From Aeromicrobium sp. Root236 (lineage in GTDB: Bacteria; Actinomycetota; Actinomycetes; Propionibacteriales; Nocardioidaceae): 64,000 nucleotides of DNA. Numbering within the stretch: position 1 is the stretch's first letter; every line of letters starts with the position of its first letter. This document shows, one piece after another, positions 46,992 through 54,477 of this stretch. The stretch is from positions 2,859,075 through 2,923,074 of the forward strand of contig NZ_LMIS01000001.1 of assembly GCF_001428805.1 (NCBI RefSeq), given 5' to 3'. A model generated the notes under the pieces. It was given only the letters and a program-made list of their open reading frames with translations. It was not told the DNA's origin and did no database searches. The translations under genes and the position numbers were made by a program.

Positions 46992-47852
46992 GTGCCACTC
47001 GACATCCCCGGAGCCCGCCACCTGCACTCAGGCAAGGTGCGCGACCTGTACGAAGTGCAGGACGGCCATCTGCTCATGGTCGCGTCCGACCGCATCTCGG
47101 CCTACGACTTCCTCCTGACGCCAGGCATCCCCGACAAGGGCGAGATCCTCACGCGCATGTCGCTGTGGTGGTTCGACCAGCTCAGCGACATCGTGCCCAA
47201 CCACGTCGTGTCGACCGCGGTGCCCGAGCGGGTGCGCGGCCGGGCCCTGATCGTCGAGAAGCTCGACATGTTCCCGGTCGAGTGCGTGGCCCGGGGCTAC
47301 CTGACCGGTTCCGGCTTGCGCGACTACAACGCGACCGGCGAGACGTGCGGCGTGCCGCTGCCGCCCGGGCTGGTCGACGCCTCGCGGCTGCCCGAGCCGA
47401 TCTTCACCCCGGCCACCAAGGCCGATCTGGGCGAGCACGACGAGAACGTGTCGTTCGCGCAGATCACCGAGACGATCGGCGCTGAGAGCGCCGAGGCGCT
47501 GCGCGACCTGACTCTCGCCGTCTACGCGCGGGCCGAGGACATCGCCCGCGAGCGCGGCATCATCCTGGCCGACACCAAGCTCGAGTTCGGCGCGCGTCCC
47601 GACGGCACGATCGTCCTCGCCGACGAGGTGCTCACCCCGGACTCGTCCCGATTCTGGCCTGCCGACTCCTGGCAGCCGGGGCGGCCGCAGCCGTCGTACG
47701 ACAAGCAGTTCGTCCGCGACTGGATGACCTCCGAGAGCGGCTGGGACCGTGAGAGCAACCGGCAGCCGCCGGCGTTGCCCGCAGAGATCGTCGAGAAGAC
47801 CCGTGAGCGCTACGTCCAGGCGTACGAGCAGCTGACGGGCGAGACGTTCTGA
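46992..47852 (+). CDS. purC: SAICAR synthetase
   Basis: A 286-residue ligase joining CAIR and aspartate. [20 protein letters not shown] is the ATP-binding N-terminus; [17 protein letters not shown] and [13 protein letters not shown] are family signatures. GTG start with TAGTCT (46980-46985) exactly six nt before it: leaderless. Convergent with the kinase gene, 3 nt apart. Confidence 0.97.
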
Positions 47853-47855
47853 TCC

Positions 47856-48764
47856 TCAGCGGATCACGTACCAGGTGACCGCGGCGGACGCCGCGAACAC
47901 CAGCACCGCCAGGGTGAGGGCGAGCCCCGAGGGCACCTCCCGGCGCACCCGCCGCACGTTGCGCACCTTGGTGCCGCCGACGATCTGCTCGAGGGCGTCG
48001 GCGAACGCCGCGGCCGACTCGGGTCGGTCGTCCGGCCGGGTCGCCAACGAGGACGCCAGCAGGTGGTCGAGGTTGCGGGGGATCTTGCCGGAGCTCGCCA
48101 GAGGCGCGGGCCGGCTGTCGTTGGACCGGTGCAGCAGCGTGCCGGGATCGGACACGTCGTACGGCGGCCGGCCCGAGAGCAGCTCGTACGTGACGGCGCC
48201 CAGCGAGTAGACGTCCGAGCGCGGGCCGACCGGTGCGCCGCGTGCCTGCTCGGGTGCCATGTAGGCCGGCGTGCCGGTCGTGACCGTGACGCCGCTGGCC
48301 TCGGCGAGACGCTTGGCGCTGCCGAGATCCGCGACGAGCACGCGGCCGTCCTCCGCGACGAGGAGGTTGCTCGGCTTGACGTCGCGGTGCAGCATGCCCT
48401 CGTCGTGCAGCACCTGGACGGCGCGTGCGCACTCGATGGCGAGCAGGAGGGCGTCCTCGGTCGATCCCGGCGGCTTCACCCGGTCGGCGACCGTGCCACC
48501 CGAGACGTAGTCCATGACGAAGAACGGCCGGTCCTCATGGGTGCCGATGTCGTGCACCCGTACGACACGGGGATCGTGGATCTGCCGGAGCAGACGGGCC
48601 TCGGCGAGGAACCGCTCACGTACGTCGGCGTGATGGGCCCAGTTCTCGGCCAGCACCTTGACCGCGACCGGAGTCTCGAGCTCGGTGTCGAAGCCGCGCC
48701 AGACGGTGGCGAAGGCGCCGAACCCCTCGACCTCGTCGAGGCGGTAGCGTCCGATCTGTTTCAT
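47856..48764 (-). CDS. Tail-anchored Ser/Thr protein kinase
   Basis: A 302-residue Hanks-type kinase. Glycine loop EGFGAFATV (13-21), catalytic Lys36, HRDVKPSN (126-133) and APEQARG are intact, but the metal-binding DFG is DLG (146-148, VADLGSAKRL). After the kinase domain comes a basic stretch and one membrane helix (about 278-300) ending only two residues before the C-terminus, so there is no outer sensor domain. Divergent from the ECF sigma gene, 45 bp away, which suggests it may control that factor by phosphorylation (inference). An in-frame GTG precedes the ATG. Confidence 0.92.
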   Translation of the reverse strand: MKQIGRYRLDEVEGFGAFATVWRGFDTELETPVAVKVLAENWAHHADVRERFLAEARLLRQIHDPRVVRVHDIGTHEDRPFFVMDYVSGGTVADRVKPPGSTEDALLLAIECARAVQVLHDEGMLHRDVKPSNLLVAEDGRVLVADLGSAKRLAEASGVTVTTGTPAYMAPEQARGAPVGPRSDVYSLGAVTYELLSGRPPYDVSDPGTLLHRSNDSRPAPLASSGKIPRNLDHLLASSLATRPDDRPESAAAFADALEQIVGGTKVRNVRRVRREVPSGLALTLAVLVFAASAAVTWYVIR

Positions 48765-48772
48765 CACGCATC

Positions 48773-48809: not shown

Positions 48810-49358
48810 ATGGATGTCGACGAGCAGCTGATCGCCAGGGCGCGAGCCGGTGAGGCCCCCGCGATGGAAGAGCTGCTGGCGGCCATCCGGCCGAGGGTCG
48901 TGAGCCGGTGCGCCCGGTTGCTGCCGCACACGCTCGACGCCGAGGAGGCCGCTCAGGACGCGCTGCTGTCGATCGCGACGCACCTGAAGGACTACTCCGG
49001 CGAGGGCTCGTTCATGGGCTGGGTCACGGTCATCGCGTCCAACTCGGCACGGCAGACCTATCGCACGTTGAAGCGGCGGTTCGCCGAGCGCTCCGTCGAC
49101 GAGCTGCCGGTCAGCCCCGACCCGCGCACGACCAGCGTGATCGCCGGCAGCCGCCTCGACCTGCTCGACGCGATCGAGGCCCTCGAGCAGGCGCACCCGG
49201 CGACCGCCGAGGCGTTCGTCCTGCGTGACATCGGTGCGCTGCCGTACGACGAGATCGCCGCCCTCACGCAGACGCCGCTCGGCACCGTCAAGGCCCGCAT
49301 CCACACGGCACGAGGATTCGTACGGGAGAGGCTGGGGGTCAATGAAGGCAACTTCTGA
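48810..49358 (+). CDS. ECF-type RNA polymerase sigma factor
   Basis: A 182-residue sigma factor with region 2 (about 20-92; LDAEEAAQDALLSIATHLKD and FMGWVTVIASNSARQTYR) and region 4 (about 125-178; LPYDEIAALTQTPLGTVKAR). No anti-sigma gene is adjacent; instead a Ser/Thr kinase is divergent. The three nearest genes to the right share a promoter-like motif, CAACY-N16-CATCT, and are its likely targets. The ATG at 48810 starts right at region 1/2. Confidence 0.9.
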   Translation: MDVDEQLIARARAGEAPAMEELLAAIRPRVVSRCARLLPHTLDAEEAAQDALLSIATHLKDYSGEGSFMGWVTVIASNSARQTYRTLKRRFAERSVDELPVSPDPRTTSVIAGSRLDLLDAIEALEQAHPATAEAFVLRDIGALPYDEIAALTQTPLGTVKARIHTARGFVRERLGVNEGNF

Positions 49359-49374
49359 GTGCTCCTCGGCATCT
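49349..49374 (+). promoter_or_regulatory. Putative ECF promoter A
   Basis: CAACT (49349-49353), 16 nt, CATCT (49370-49374), with GG before the -10, matching promoters B and C in sequence and exact spacing. The -35 lies across the last codons of the sigma gene. It would drive the exported-protein gene at 49425. Confidence 0.6.
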
Positions 49375-49424
49375 CTGTCTCCGAGGTGTGTCCCATCGGG
49401 GGCACCAGCACCACGGAGGAACCC

Positions 49425-50120
49425 ATGAAGCAGCAGATCGCAACCGGCATCCTCGCGATCAGCATGGCCGGCGGCGTGAGCACGAGCGTGGTGGCACACC
49501 AGCTCAGCTCCGAGTCCGACCCGGAGCCCAAGGCCACGCCGTCAGCCACCCAGACGTCGAAGAAGACCGACAAGCCCAAGTCGACCAAGACCGCCAACCC
49601 GCCTCCGGGCACCGGCGGCGGCACCAAGACGTCGGAGCCGCCGAAGCTGCCGCTCGCGCCCGTCGGCGCGCTGCGCATCATCCCCGGTGCGGTCGGCCCG
49701 GTGCAGGTCGGGATGAGCAAGCAGGATGCGTACGCGACGGGCTACTTCGACGCCGACGTGTCGGTGCCGGCGTGCAACCGGACCGACGACCTGGTGTGGA
49801 AGGCCGGCTACAACGACCAGCTCGACATCCGCACCAACGACGACGGCTCGGTCGCGGCGATCGGCATTCGCGGTGGGGGCCCGCGTACGCGCTCGGGGCT
49901 CGGCGTCGGCAGCACCTACGAGAGCGTCCAGGGGGTGCTCGGAGAGGTGGCGCCGGAGCCGGCGGGGCAGGGCCAGACCGGCCTGTTCGTCAGCGAGGGC
50001 AACGGCTGGATCGGGTTCTTGTTCAACGCGGCTCCCGATGCCGTCGCGCCGACCGACACCGTGACGTTCGTCGAGGTCACGAGCGGCGTACGGCCCGGCC
50101 TGACCCGCAGCGGCTGCTGA
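49425..50120 (+). CDS. Exported or membrane-anchored protein of unknown function
   Basis: A 231-residue protein: N-terminal hydrophobic signal or anchor (about 4-25), a Pro/Lys/Thr-rich spacer (about 30-75, KKTDKPKSTKTANPPPG) like those crossing the cell wall, then a compact domain (about 85-225) starting GPVQVGMSKQDAYATGYF. Two cysteines, one the final residue. No family recognised. GGAGG precedes the ATG. It follows the sigma factor and has putative ECF promoter A. Confidence 0.85.
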   Translation: MKQQIATGILAISMAGGVSTSVVAHQLSSESDPEPKATPSATQTSKKTDKPKSTKTANPPPGTGGGTKTSEPPKLPLAPVGALRIIPGAVGPVQVGMSKQDAYATGYFDADVSVPACNRTDDLVWKAGYNDQLDIRTNDDGSVAAIGIRGGGPRTRSGLGVGSTYESVQGVLGEVAPEPAGQGQTGLFVSEGNGWIGFLFNAAPDAVAPTDTVTFVEVTSGVRPGLTRSGC

Positions 50121-50144
50121 AGCCGCCGGCCGGGCCGGGCTCGG

Positions 50145-50738
50145 TCAGCGGGCCGCTCGTACGCCCTGCCCGAGGTCGATGACCTGGTCCTCGATCGTCG
50201 TCTCACGGCCGGCGGCCACGCTGACCACGATCGGTTCGCGGGCGGTGAGGTCGGCGTCCTGGAACGTCACCGCGTACTCGCCGGGCGGCAGCCCGCCGAT
50301 GCGGAACGTGCCCTTGGCCGAGACGTACGCGGCTCCCGTGGCGTGAGCGCCGGATGCCGTCACGCACATGTCGGTGGCGGGTTGCTCATCGCTGACGACG
50401 GTGCCCTGGACGTACCCGGCGACCGGCATCGTCAGGTCCTGCGGCGTCGGGCGAGCCGGATCGATCGTGACGGCGAGGCGGGTGAAGACGTGGGCGCCGG
50501 TGTGGTCCGTGGCCTCGACCCGGTAGTCGTCGCCCGCGACGGGCTGGCGCCGGGTGAACCGGTAGCCGCCGACATCGTCCGTGATCGTGGTGTCGAGGCG
50601 GGTGCCCTGGTCGCGGCCCTCGGTGAACAGGGCGACCGTGATCCCGGCGAGCGGATAGCCGCTCGGGTCGGAGATCGTGCCCGTGACGACGGCGGAGAGT
50701 GCGACCGTCGTGGTCGGTCTCATGGGATGTACGGTCAT
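50145..50738 (-). CDS. Carboxypeptidase-regulatory-like (TTR-fold) protein without signal peptide
   Basis: A 197-residue protein with two transthyretin-like beta domains (about 13-95, VVTGTISDPSGYPLAGITVA, and 100-190, GTFRIGGLPPGEYAVTF). The ATG at 50738 is supported by AGGGGGA. Its paralogue upstream has a clear signal peptide; this one does not, so it is cytoplasmic, exported unconventionally, or lost its leader. Preceded by putative ECF promoter B. Confidence 0.82.
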   Translation of the reverse strand: MTVHPMRPTTTVALSAVVTGTISDPSGYPLAGITVALFTEGRDQGTRLDTTITDDVGGYRFTRRQPVAGDDYRVEATDHTGAHVFTRLAVTIDPARPTPQDLTMPVAGYVQGTVVSDEQPATDMCVTASGAHATGAAYVSAKGTFRIGGLPPGEYAVTFQDADLTAREPIVVSVAAGRETTIEDQVIDLGQGVRAAR

Positions 50739-50777
50739 GCGTCCCCCTCGGGATCGGTGTGTGCGTTCTGTCATGTC

Positions 50778-50803
50778 AGATGCCGAGGGGGACGCAAAGG
50801 TTG
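50778..50803 (-). promoter_or_regulatory. Putative ECF promoter B
   Basis: Read leftward: CAACC (50803-50799), 16 nt starting TTTGCG, then CATCT (50782-50778), with ACAACCTTTGCG and GGCATCT both shared with promoter C. It lies 40 nt before the ATG of the TTR-like gene. Confidence 0.65.
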
Positions 50804-50814
50804 TCTCGTTCGAC

Positions 50815-51828
50815 TCAGTTCTTCGGCAGCGCGATGTGCAGGTTCGTGATCTGCGAGCCGTCGTTCATCGTGACCGGTGTCGCCGAGGCGTAGCTGGTCG
50901 CGTTGACGTACCACGTCGTGCGGTGGACACCCGTGGGGTCACTGACCCGGACCCGGACCTTGCCCACGAAGTCCAGGCTGCCCTTCTTCCAGGTGCCGTC
51001 GGCGGCCGTCGTGACCGGGATCGAGCCGTCCGTGGCGCTGGTGAGGACGTCGACCTTCATGCCCTGCAAGGGGTGGCCCTCGGTGTCAGTCACGGTGCCG
51101 GAGACCGTGCCGTACCGGTACTTCATCACCTGACGGCTCAGGGTCGTCGCCTTCCCGGCGGTCACCTTGACGTAGGTGAGGCCGACGCAGCCCTTCTGCG
51201 TCCTGCGGACGTTGTTGTAGCAGGTCTCGTCGAACACCTCGGCCATGTCACCGAACGCGACGTAGTAGGTGCCGGTCGGCAGCCCGCCGAGGCGGAATCC
51301 GCCGCCGGCGGAGACCATGACGGCACCGCCGGGGAGGTTCTCGTCCTCCTCGTCGCCGACCATCTTCGCCGACACGCCGACGGTCTTCGCCGCCTTGAGG
51401 GGGGCGGTCCCGATCTGCGTGTAGACCTTGCCCTGGATGATGCCGGCGTCCTTCACCGACAGGTTCGTCGTCGTGGTCACGCCGTTCTTGACGACGAACG
51501 ACGGGGAGTACTTCGCGACGTGCCAGCCCGTCGTGTCGATCGCCTCGTAGCGATAGGTGTCGTCGCCGTCGGTCGCCACACCCTCGAGCCGGAACCGGCC
51601 CGCATCGTTGGTCGAGGCGGTGCCGACGACCTCGCCCTGGGCGTCGTGGACCTTGATGGTGAGGCCGGCCAGCGGGTATCCGCCGGCGTCGAAGACCGAC
51701 CCGGCGACGGCGCCGGTCCCCGGTGCGGCGTTCGCCGCGGTGAGCGCCGCAGCACCACCGATGGTCAGGGTGACCAGAGTGCCCGCGGCAAGTGCGGCTC
51801 GACTGAGTCGAGTGAGTCGTGCGGTCAT
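50815..51828 (-). CDS. Secreted protein with TTR/carboxypeptidase-regulatory-like domains
   Basis: A 337-residue exported protein: signal peptide 1-35 (RAALAAGTLVTLTIGGAAAL, cut near ANA-AP), then about three beta domains with the pattern GSVFDAGGYPLAGLTIKV, then GGGFRLGGLPTGTYYVAF and GTVSGTVTDTEGHPLQGMKV. A Cys pair sits in ETCYNNVRRTQKGC. Such domains are surface or adhesive modules. ATG at 51828 with a perfect GAGGAGG. Preceded by putative ECF promoter C; the longer frame into the ligase gene is antisense noise. Confidence 0.87.
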   Translation of the reverse strand: MTARLTRLSRAALAAGTLVTLTIGGAAALTAANAAPGTGAVAGSVFDAGGYPLAGLTIKVHDAQGEVVGTASTNDAGRFRLEGVATDGDDTYRYEAIDTTGWHVAKYSPSFVVKNGVTTTTNLSVKDAGIIQGKVYTQIGTAPLKAAKTVGVSAKMVGDEEDENLPGGAVMVSAGGGFRLGGLPTGTYYVAFGDMAEVFDETCYNNVRRTQKGCVGLTYVKVTAGKATTLSRQVMKYRYGTVSGTVTDTEGHPLQGMKVDVLTSATDGSIPVTTAADGTWKKGSLDFVGKVRVRVSDPTGVHRTTWYVNATSYASATPVTMNDGSQITNLHIALPKN

Positions 51829-51859
51829 GCTTCCTCCTCGGTTGGTGCTGTGGTGGGAG

Positions 51860-51885
51860 AGATGCCTGGGTCGCCGCAAAGGTTG
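51860..51885 (-). promoter_or_regulatory. Putative ECF promoter C
   Basis: Read leftward: CAACC (51885-51881), 16 nt starting TTTGCG, then CATCT (51864-51860). Same elements and spacing as promoters A and B; 32 nt from the start of the secreted TTR-like gene. Confidence 0.65.
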
Positions 51886-51945: not shown

Positions 51946-53502
51946 GTGGCCAACCTCGCCGCTTTGCTGGAGCAGTCGACCGAGAAGTACGCCGACCGTA
52001 CGGCGATCGTGTTCGGCGACACGCGGTTGACGTATGCGCAGGTCAACGGCGCTGCGAACCAGGTGGCGAACCTGCTGGTGGCACGCGGGATCCAGCCCGG
52101 CGACAAGGTCGCGCTGTCGTGCCCCAACCTGCCGTACTTCACGGTCATCTACTTCGGCATCCTCAAGGCGGGCGCCACGGTCGTGCCGTTGAACGTGCTG
52201 CTCAAGGGCCGCGAGGTGGCCTATCACCTGGCCGACTCGGACGCCAAGGCGTACTTCGCGTTCGAGGGCACGCAGGACCTGCCGATCGGCGACGCTGCGT
52301 GGGAGGGGTTCCAGGCGACGGAGTCGTGCACCGAGTTCTTCCTGATCAAGCTCGACTCCCAGCAGCCCGAGCCGATGGAGCCGCCGGAGTTCTTCGGCCC
52401 TCTCGTGGCGCAGCAGCCACCGACGTTCGACACGGTCGAGCGCGATGACGACGACACGGCAGTCATCCTCTACACGTCCGGCACGACGGGGCAGCCCAAG
52501 GGTGCGGAGCTGCGGCACCGCAACATGCGCGACAACGCGCTGGCCGGCAAGGACCTGTTCGGCGCGGACGAGTCGCGGCCTGACACGTACCTGTGCGTGC
52601 TGCCGCTGTTCCACTCGTTCGGTCAGACGGTGATCCAGAACGGCTCGATGGCGTACGGCGGCACGGTCGTGATGCTGCCGAGGTTCGAGGCCAAGTCGGC
52701 TCTGGGGCTGATGCTGGCCAACCGAGTCACGTTCTTCGCCGGGGTGCCGACGATGTACTGGGGCCTGCTCGGCGCACTCGACGACACGGTCGACGTGGAG
52801 GCGCTGGCGGCCAACCTGCGCGTCGCGGCAGCCGGCGGGTCGGCGCTGCCGGTCGACATCCACCGCCAGTTCAAGGAGCGGTTCGGGGTCACGATCCTCG
52901 AGGGCTACGGCCTCTCGGAGACGTCTCCCGTCGCGTCGTTCTCCCGGTTCGGCGAGGAGCCTCGCGTGGGGTCGATCGGCGTGCCGATCCCCGGCGTCGA
53001 GATGAAGCTGATCAACGACGACTGGAGCGAGGTCGAGCCGGGCCCGGACGCGGTCGGTGAGATCGCGATCAAGGGCCACAACGTCATGAAGGGCTACTAC
53101 AACCGGCCCGAGGCCACCGCCGAGGCGATCCGGGACGGCTGGTTCAGGTCGGGCGACCTGGCCAAGAAGGACGAGGACGGTTTCTACTACATCGTCGACC
53201 GGTCCAAGGACATGATCATCCGCGGTGGCTTCAACGTCTATCCGCGCGAGATCGAGGAGGTCCTCATGGAGCACCCGGCGGTGTCGCTGGTCGCGGTGAT
53301 CGGCGTGCCGAACGAGTCGCACGGCGAGGAGATCAAGGCCGTCGTGGTCAAGAACAAGGACCACGACGACGTCTCGGAGGCCGACCTGGTGGCCTGGGGC
53401 AAGGAGCAGCTCGCGGCCTACAAGTACCCGCGCGTCGTCGAGTTCCGCGACGAGCTGCCGATGACCAGCACCGGCAAGATCCTCAAGCGCGAGCTGTCCT
53501 GA
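51946..53502 (+). CDS. Acyl-CoA synthetase (long-chain fatty acid-CoA ligase type)
   Basis: A 518-residue adenylate-forming enzyme: ATP loop LYTSGTTGQPKGAE near residue 170, YGLSETSP, GDLAKKDEDGFYYIVDRSKD, GGFNVYPREIEEVL and the C-terminal catalytic Lys in STGKILKREL. It activates a carboxylic acid, probably a fatty acid, to acyl-CoA. GTG at 51946 after GGAGG; TATGGT at 51910 is a possible -10. The longer upstream frame is the antisense of the neighbouring gene. Confidence 0.93.
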   Translation: MANLAALLEQSTEKYADRTAIVFGDTRLTYAQVNGAANQVANLLVARGIQPGDKVALSCPNLPYFTVIYFGILKAGATVVPLNVLLKGREVAYHLADSDAKAYFAFEGTQDLPIGDAAWEGFQATESCTEFFLIKLDSQQPEPMEPPEFFGPLVAQQPPTFDTVERDDDDTAVILYTSGTTGQPKGAELRHRNMRDNALAGKDLFGADESRPDTYLCVLPLFHSFGQTVIQNGSMAYGGTVVMLPRFEAKSALGLMLANRVTFFAGVPTMYWGLLGALDDTVDVEALAANLRVAAAGGSALPVDIHRQFKERFGVTILEGYGLSETSPVASFSRFGEEPRVGSIGVPIPGVEMKLINDDWSEVEPGPDAVGEIAIKGHNVMKGYYNRPEATAEAIRDGWFRSGDLAKKDEDGFYYIVDRSKDMIIRGGFNVYPREIEEVLMEHPAVSLVAVIGVPNESHGEEIKAVVVKNKDHDDVSEADLVAWGKEQLAAYKYPRVVEFRDELPMTSTGKILKRELS

Positions 53503-53566: not shown

Positions 53567-53809
53567 GTGGCCCGCGTCATCGTCGATGTCATGCCCAAAC
53601 CCGAGATCCTCGACCCGCAGGGCAAGGCCGTCCACGGCGCACTGCCGCGTCTCGGCTATCACGCCGTGACGGACGTACGCCAGGGCAAGCGGTTCGAGCT
53701 CGAGGTCGAGGTGGTCGACGAGGCCACACTCGCCGAGGTGCACGCCCTGGCCGGCACGCTGCTGTCGAACCCGGTCATCGAGGACTACTCCGTACGAGTG
53801 GATTCATGA
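53567..53809 (+). CDS. purS: Phosphoribosylformylglycinamidine synthase subunit PurS
   Basis: An 80-residue subunit of the three-part FGAM synthase ([33 protein letters not shown]). It bridges PurQ and PurL. GTG start, AAGGAG upstream; TAGACT near 53533 is a likely -10. Overlaps purQ by 4 nt. Confidence 0.96.
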
Positions 53810-54477
53810 AGGTCGGCGTCGTCACGTTCCCGGGGTCGCTCGACGACGTCGACGCGCAGCGGGCCGTACGCATCGCCGGTGGCGAGCCGGTCGCGCTGTG
53901 GCACGGTGACCACGACCTCAAGGGCGTCGACGCGGTCATCCTGCCGGGCGGCTTCTCCTACGGCGACTACCTGCGTGCCGGGGCGATCGCCCGGTTCGCG
54001 CCGGTCATGACCGAGGTCATCGCCGCGGCGCAGGGCGGCATGCCGGTGCTCGGCATCTGCAACGGCTTCCAGATCCTGTGCGAGTCGCACCTCCTGCCCG
54101 GCGCCCTGATCCGCAACGACCACCGCACGTTCATCTGCCGTGACCAGACCCTCAAGGTCGAGAACGCCTCGACCGCGTGGACCTCGAACCTGTCGCTCGG
54201 CGACGAGATCGTGATCCCGCTCAAGAACGGCGAGGGCGGCTTCGTCGCCGACGAGGACACGCTCGACCGCCTCGAGGGCGAGGGCCAGGTCGTGTTCCGC
54301 TACGTCGACGTCAATCCCAACGGCTCGCTGCGCGACATCGCCGGCATCACCAACGAGCGCGGCAACGTCGTCGGGCTCATGCCGCACCCCGAGCACGCGG
54401 TCGAGGACCTGACCGGTCCCGGCACCGACGGCCTGGCCCTCTTCACCTCGGCGCTGGCCACCCTCACCTCTGCCTAG
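53806..54477 (+). CDS. purQ: Phosphoribosylformylglycinamidine synthase glutaminase PurQ
   Basis: A 223-residue class I glutamine amidotransferase that feeds ammonia to PurL. Nucleophile Cys85 in [11 protein letters not shown] and the His/Glu pair in [10 protein letters not shown] are present. purL does not follow; the next gene is convergent, so purL lies elsewhere. Confidence 0.96.

Follow-up and report, generated by a model that had tools for sequence, protein, structure and literature searches.

The 64,000-nucleotide (nt) stretch of the Aeromicrobium sp. Root236 genome analyzed here (the window) contains a gene for an extracytoplasmic function (ECF) sigma factor (48810..49358, plus strand), which probably heads a small dedicated envelope regulon with a neighboring membrane-bound Ser/Thr kinase as its control, in place of an anti-sigma factor. 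Elements resembling a −35 (CAACYTTT) and a −10 (GCATCT), at fixed spacing, precede three neighboring genes (A, B, and C) as well as a distal acyltransferase gene; in relatives they lie ahead of an NPCBM exported gene, exported proteins similar to the PknH ectodomain, and an L,D-transpeptidase. It is very likely that the sigma factor reads the predicted sites, and control of the sigma factor by the kinase is likely as well, with somewhat less assurance. As far as sequence comparison can tell, the regulon which a sequence-only reading had proposed for this locus is real and wider than was stated. Its view of a dedicated sigma factor with a small cell-surface module is supported by the envelope-type targets, but the regulon is not only local, as the distal acyltransferase gene also carries a site, and the divergent Ser/Thr kinase at 47856-48767 had been overlooked.

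The sigma factor (182 amino acids) belongs to the ECF type (group 4), with regions 2 and 4 only. Sigma70_r2 (PF04542, E 2.1e-10) and Sigma70_r4_2 (PF08281, E 8e-10) are both above the gathering thresholds, and TIGR02937 scores 61.6 bits against a cut-off of 42.9. Three predicted promoter sites of the form CAACY-N16-CATCT are found near it, at the positions and on the strands that had been noted. Site A (CAACT; 49349..49374, plus strand) overlaps the last codons and the stop of the sigma gene, site B (CAACC; 50778..50803, minus strand) is located upstream of gene B, and site C (CAACC; 51860..51885, minus strand) upstream of gene C. The end of CATCT is 50, 39, and 31 nt from the start codon of A, B, and C, respectively. 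The stretch CAACCTTTGCG is common to sites B and C, and GG stands ahead of CATCT in all three; the GG, and TTTGCG after the −35 of B and C, had already been noted. The motif occurs four times in the window against 0.08 expected from shuffles, and none of 100 shuffles reached four; the fourth match (52125-52150) is within the coding sequence of an acyl-CoA synthetase. The genome scan with this bare motif, which had been proposed as a check, gave 20 matches against 43 of the reversed control in the 3.92 Mb genome, and such a scan alone does not reveal the regulon. When extended to CAACYTTTGCGN4CCYCGGCATCT, with three mismatches allowed at most, the pattern gave four matches in the same 3.92 Mb and none in the controls; three of the four are sites A, B, and C. 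The distal acyltransferase gene with a site is at genome position 1972334. A one-mismatch site is also located at genome position 3334649-3334674 (L124), 40 nt ahead of a gene for an exported sortase-like protein (below cut-off at E 0.0047). Site A has its −10 flanked by CCTCGG and CCGAGG, and a long inverted repeat, CCCCCTCGG ... CCGAGGGGG (50740-50803), extends from the spacer of site B to the ribosome-binding site of gene B.

Conservation of the motif beside orthologous sigma genes, the test by which the sequence-only reading could have fallen, turned out in its favor. The first search included 58 genomes, the own genome among them, and found the sigma gene in 28. Within the 16 sigma loci of the same genus (including that of the window), 15 have the exact motif at the 3′ end of the sigma gene; the only deviation, in L025, is in the last letter. 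L047, an Aeromicrobium locus added by a later scan, deviates in the first letter. The position of site A in Aeromicrobium ranges from 35 nt before to 10 nt after the sigma stop, and the codon frame changes while CAAC and CATCT stay. This shift relative to both the stop and the reading frame is an indication that the constraint acts on the DNA and not on the protein. Elements of the B type and of the C type also precede the similar genes in L043 and L144, and in L146 and L147, respectively. In one metagenome-assembled genome (L045, 10600-11200), the homologue of gene A appears as two short frames, perhaps through an assembly error.

In 14 loci of other families, the exact CAACY form was found in none and the form C(A/G)ACG-N16-CATC(T/G) in five, by eye. 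A larger set was collected by scanning species-representative genomes with an alignment of 25 sigma factors, and the best 80 of at least 497 loci were retained (L043-L122). CAAC-N17-CATCT is found 58 times in 46 of these 80 loci, compared with 0-10 times for each of the other spacings (8-16 and 18-27). A start is predicted 25-120 nt downstream of 35 of the matches, which come from 30 loci, and the other 23 fall within predicted genes. A scoring matrix built from 14 Aeromicrobium sites only was applied across families, with 10.5, the maximum of 655 farther upstream regions, as the threshold. A near-sigma gene exceeds it in 33 of the 71 loci of other genera (40 of 562 near-sigma upstream regions), and 20 of these 33 loci are from Streptomyces, Kitasatospora, Actinacidiphila, and Streptacidiphilus. 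The cross-family claim rests on the exact-spacing count and this 14-site matrix, a 33-site matrix containing some of the tested sites. Degenerate forms of the site lie 34-51 nt ahead of an exported-protein gene in Nocardioides loci, e.g., L103, L107, and L111. In the respective search for covariation of the −35 with region 4.2, Actinopolymorpha and Mumia (CAACGAA or CAACAAA) were suggestive, and Terrabacter and Intrasporangium contradict a simple rule.

The distribution of the sites in the genus follows that of the sigma gene. With the refined pattern CAACYTTT-N12-GCATCT, 12 of the 49 genus genomes gave matches, 19 in all, and the reversed controls gave none; a simple base-composition model (68% GC) predicts about 0.007 per genome of 3.4 Mb. 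When up to two mismatches were allowed, the matches beyond one mismatch were noise (17 against 23 in the controls). All 19 sites are followed by a ribosome-binding site and a start 30-50 nt downstream. They are present in 12 of the 18 genomes with the sigma gene and in none of the 31 without it (Fisher p 2e-7). For the sites away from the sigma locus only, the respective values are 5 of 18 and 0 of 31 (p 0.0045). The 19 sites precede gene A (7), genes of the B/C type (5), the acyltransferase (4), and the NPCBM protein (3).

Both distal targets show the same dependence at the level of single orthologues. The acyltransferase gene carries the site in five out of five sigma-plus genomes (G000, G021, G027, G024, and G067; 69-100% identical), with a different spacer in G067 (69% identical). 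Its orthologue in the sigma-less G012 (68% identical) has no site, and neither has any of the other 10 matches of the search (50% identical or less). In the case of the NPCBM gene, all three sigma-plus orthologues have the site (G067, G027 at 61%, and G021 at 57%), against none of the two sigma-less ones (G030 at 71% and G012 at 69%); two more distant paralogues in the sigma-plus G067 and G000 are also without it.

The common theme of the predicted targets is the cell envelope. Two of the products next to the sigma gene had been described as TTR-fold-like, and this was confirmed by CarboxypepD_reg domains in both: gene B (50145..50738, minus strand; 197 amino acids) has two such stretches (PF13620, E 4.1e-17) and gene C (50815..51828, minus strand; 337 amino acids) encodes an exported protein of TTR-like repeats (PF13620, E 2e-17). 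The two products that look exported, as had been claimed, are A and C, the latter with an N-terminal signal peptide, and no signal peptide is visible in B, all by eye. Gene A (49425..50120, plus strand; 231 amino acids) has no match in Pfam or NCBIfam, and its C-terminal domain shows likeness to the YfeY, DUF4309, and CAP-associated folds. The acyltransferase has an Acyl_transf_3 domain followed by an SGNH stretch below cut-off, and reaches 145 bits to the mycobacterial SucT, far below the SucT cut-off. The NPCBM/Ig-like exported target scores 24.8-26.6 bits for NPCBM against a cut-off of 23.9.

In the streptomycete family, the target protein agreed with the PknH_C structure 4esq in the fold test. 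The PF14032 (PknH_C) profile itself matched none of nine members, and a distant relative in L114 reached 18 of the 27 bits required. Sequence searches against solved structures returned matches at chance level only for the profile of the streptomycete proteins and for the sortase-like gene, and none for gene A. In comparison with the PknH extracellular domain and TiME of Mycobacterium, the streptomycete protein is a stand-alone exported protein with no kinase attached, and the fold of gene A in the window is a different one. The loci L068, L077, and L088 have a second site ahead of a Big_10/YkuD L,D-transpeptidase (family assigned on the L077 member). Streptomycete loci, for instance L077 (10521-12166), contain two paralogous PknH-like proteins after the sigma gene, one of which overlaps or nearly abuts the sigma stop, and the other has its own site 50 nt upstream.

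No anti-sigma gene adjoins the sigma gene, whose immediate neighbors are the kinase and gene A, although an unrecognized one may lie elsewhere. Gene A has few residues before its hydrophobic N-terminal segment and no Pfam match. The kinase (47856..48767, minus strand; Pkinase E 7.8e-43) is of the Hanks type, with a transmembrane segment at its C-terminus and no ectodomain, and its gene diverges from that of the sigma factor. A clean kinase-domain query within 3 kb was applied to 79 of the 80 loci, L094 having 180 nt upstream only. It found a kinase at 74 of the 79, and 71 of these are divergent and start at most 450 nt from the sigma match; the remaining three (L108, L114, and L121) share the strand of the divergent ones, at a distance of about 0.9-1.1 kb. 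The five loci without a kinase are of the Streptosporangiaceae type, and gene predictions and tblastn agree with this outcome. A clear membrane segment in the C-terminal half was seen in 67 of the 72 kinases examined, followed in 60 of these 67 by no more than 11 residues, so that most kinases have no domain of their own for sensing outside the cell; the hydropathy calls are rough, and in one case (L051) inspection by eye overturned the automatic assignment of an ectodomain. The kinase-less loci (L115, L117, L119, L120, and L122) form a clade of sigma orthologues which also have no promoter sites, and a gene similar to trehalose-phosphate synthase is found nearby (L115, L117, and L122, by sequence look).

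The linker between regions 2 and 4 of the sigma factor reads DPRTTSV in the window and includes T107 and T108. Within the 80 loci and the window, Ser or Thr is found at T107 in 74 of 76 sigma factors and at T108 in 75 of 76, and R and V occupy the two positions in all five kinase-less ones. Because the 80-locus set had been gathered with a pattern including T108, the linker survey was repeated without a pattern, in a class-wide sample of 296 genomes (58 positive, 62 sigma factors). A kinase is located within about 1.5 kb in 43 of the 62 and within 6 kb in 48; the 6-kb search of the flanks covered 20 loci (the 19 without a near kinase and L242), one of which (L226) is cut by the contig end. In the 48 kinase-linked sigma factors, 46 have TT and two RT, and T108 is retained in all. 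The 14 without a kinase showed RV in 13 cases and TT in one (L223). T108 is therefore a candidate phosphosite, one backed by essentially a single evolutionary event, and phosphorylation of T107/T108 may be entertained tentatively, at clearly less than even chances. A kinase-bearing member of the clade that lost TT (L213) has RT. S77 was rejected as a phosphosite, since an A is found at this position in the kinase-linked family f20. A second group of sigma paralogues (L278-L281; e.g., L237, L241, L244, and L246) keeps TT, and its kinase is about 2 kb off and not adjacent.

Several results weigh against the proposed kinase-linked envelope regulon. With a broader pattern, 18 genomes of other genera gave 26 matches against 35 in the reversed controls; 13 of the 26 are beside the sigma gene, and of the other 13, nine fall in coding-like frames and for four no start was found. 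The distal regulon is thus seen only in Aeromicrobium. No near gene exceeds the threshold in 38 of the 71 loci of other genera, including most of the Kribbella and Nocardioides loci and the five kinase-less ones. Among the 33 positives, L096 and two from Kribbella (L056 and L106) resemble chance matches, and L099, L103, and L107 (11.7-12.0) are borderline. The sortase-like gene was dropped as a fifth target in the own genome, its site missing in six out of six orthologues found. In the linker, TT was lost only once on the tree, two kinase-linked sigma factors have RT, and the kinase-less L223 keeps TT.

The most serious alternative is that the sigma factor is active alone, governed by its own synthesis only, and that the adjoining kinase serves another purpose. 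The acidic motif of region 2.2, which binds the core polymerase, is kept in 25 of the 25 aligned sigma factors as DAEE or DAED (D43, A44, and E45 are invariant, and position 46 is E or D), and one clade retains the sigma factor without a kinase; both speak for this alternative. Against it, the kinase is present at 74 of 79 loci across families, in 71 of them divergent and adjacent, and T108 is retained together with it; the kinase-less clade of the 80-locus set is also without the promoter sites and may have changed its job. A self-active sigma factor is consequently rather unlikely, yet it deserves some weight. Considerably less probable is that the sites belong to another regulator, either a different sigma factor or a DNA-binding protein, and lie beside the sigma gene by chance. 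The own genome has 45 sigma-like candidates at first look, so further sigma factors exist, but in the 49 genus genomes the sites occur only together with this sigma gene, even at far loci, and their spacing recurs beside orthologous sigma genes in other families. The layout is also that of an ECF promoter, for which AAC in the −35 is typical. The weakest alternative, by which the likeness of B and C reflects gene duplication only (both are TTR-domain genes sharing CAACCTTTGCG) and site A is held by the codons of the sigma C-terminus which it overlaps, is highly improbable and already contradicted by the changing frame and stop distance of site A, with CAAC and CATCT unchanged, and by the unrelated genes that bear the element.

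In the preferred reading, a dedicated regulon under kinase control, the sigma factor and RNA polymerase would start transcription at the predicted sites, and the kinase would switch the sigma factor on (or off) upon an envelope signal, possibly through a phosphorylated T107/T108 linker. The induced proteins would modify or monitor the envelope, and the protein encoded next to the sigma gene may feed back on the kinase. A more specific version, which seems improbable at present, is a split-receptor circuit: the tail-anchored, sensorless kinase would receive its signal via a separate exported protein, phosphorylation of the linker threonines rather than of region 2.2 would activate the sigma factor, and the sigma factor would induce the sensor in a feedback loop. 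The sensor would be the PknH-ectodomain-like protein in streptomycetes and the YfeY-like gene A product in Aeromicrobium. A hint in its favor is that six kinases with an ectodomain by eye (L090, L108, L110, L113, L116, and L118) have no adjoining site. On the other hand, 29 of 64 tail-anchored kinases also have none, and the contrast is not significant (p 0.055, with L051 miscalled). In the class-wide sample, a site-like match accompanies one of five ectodomain kinases (L236, 17.8, at the locus edge) against three of 10 tail-anchored kinases, and the locus end truncated 26 more. The ectodomains also showed no profile similarity to either target family (hhalign probabilities of 0.04 and 0.28 per cent), and four of them had no match in Pfam.

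Genes of purine biosynthesis flank the module in the window, SAICAR-synthase-like upstream (46992-47852) and PurS/PurQ-like downstream (53567-54477), by sequence look. The same neighbors are found in L043 and L044, and PurF/PurM-like genes are near the sigma gene in L087 and other Nocardioides loci.

An ECF sigma factor with a Ser/Thr kinase is of a kind already known, and the locus is most likely an actinobacterial kinase-controlled ECF system. Its likely group is ECF283, an actinobacterial group listed in PMC8999054 as predicted to be regulated by Ser/Thr protein kinase phosphorylation, with WP_056749340.1 of Nocardioides sp. Root190 as the exemplar. The locus L103, from the exemplar strain, has a sigma factor 58% identical to that of the window and a divergent kinase; it may be WP_056749340.1 itself, but related genomes of the family can hold two paralogues. 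The kinase gene conserved beside the sigma gene, the mark of this group, is found at 74 of 79 loci. In the passages of the literature searched, including those of the RIViT-seq paper (PMC9205884), neither a promoter nor a regulon of ECF283 was found described; the supplement to the classification (NAR 2021, gkaa1229) may list a predicted motif. In ECF43, represented by EcfP/PknT of Vibrio parahaemolyticus and EcfK/PknS of Xanthomonas citri, the sigma gene is also beside a Ser/Thr kinase gene and without an anti-sigma factor, as in the window (PMC8999054, PMC8103513). PknS is described as transmembrane (PMC13147305). The ECF43 sigma factors are without the acidic DAED motif and regain the charge by phosphorylation there, whereas in other kinase-linked groups acidic residues are retained and the mechanism may differ, according to the relevant sections of PMC8999054 and PMC8103513. 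The sigma factor of the window has DAEE intact, so that the ECF43 mechanism is inapplicable as such, and its kinase has no ectodomain.

In these same sections (PMC8999054, PMC8103513), the phosphorylation mechanism of kinase-linked ECF sigma factors is presented as worked out for ECF43 only and the other groups are termed uncharacterized. The actinobacterial counterpart now gains a predicted promoter, a short list of putative envelope-related targets, a residue that may be the phosphosite, and, in its sigma-less and kinase-less relatives, natural negative controls. Conclusively, a prediction from gene neighborhood would become a testable kinase-linked control circuit.

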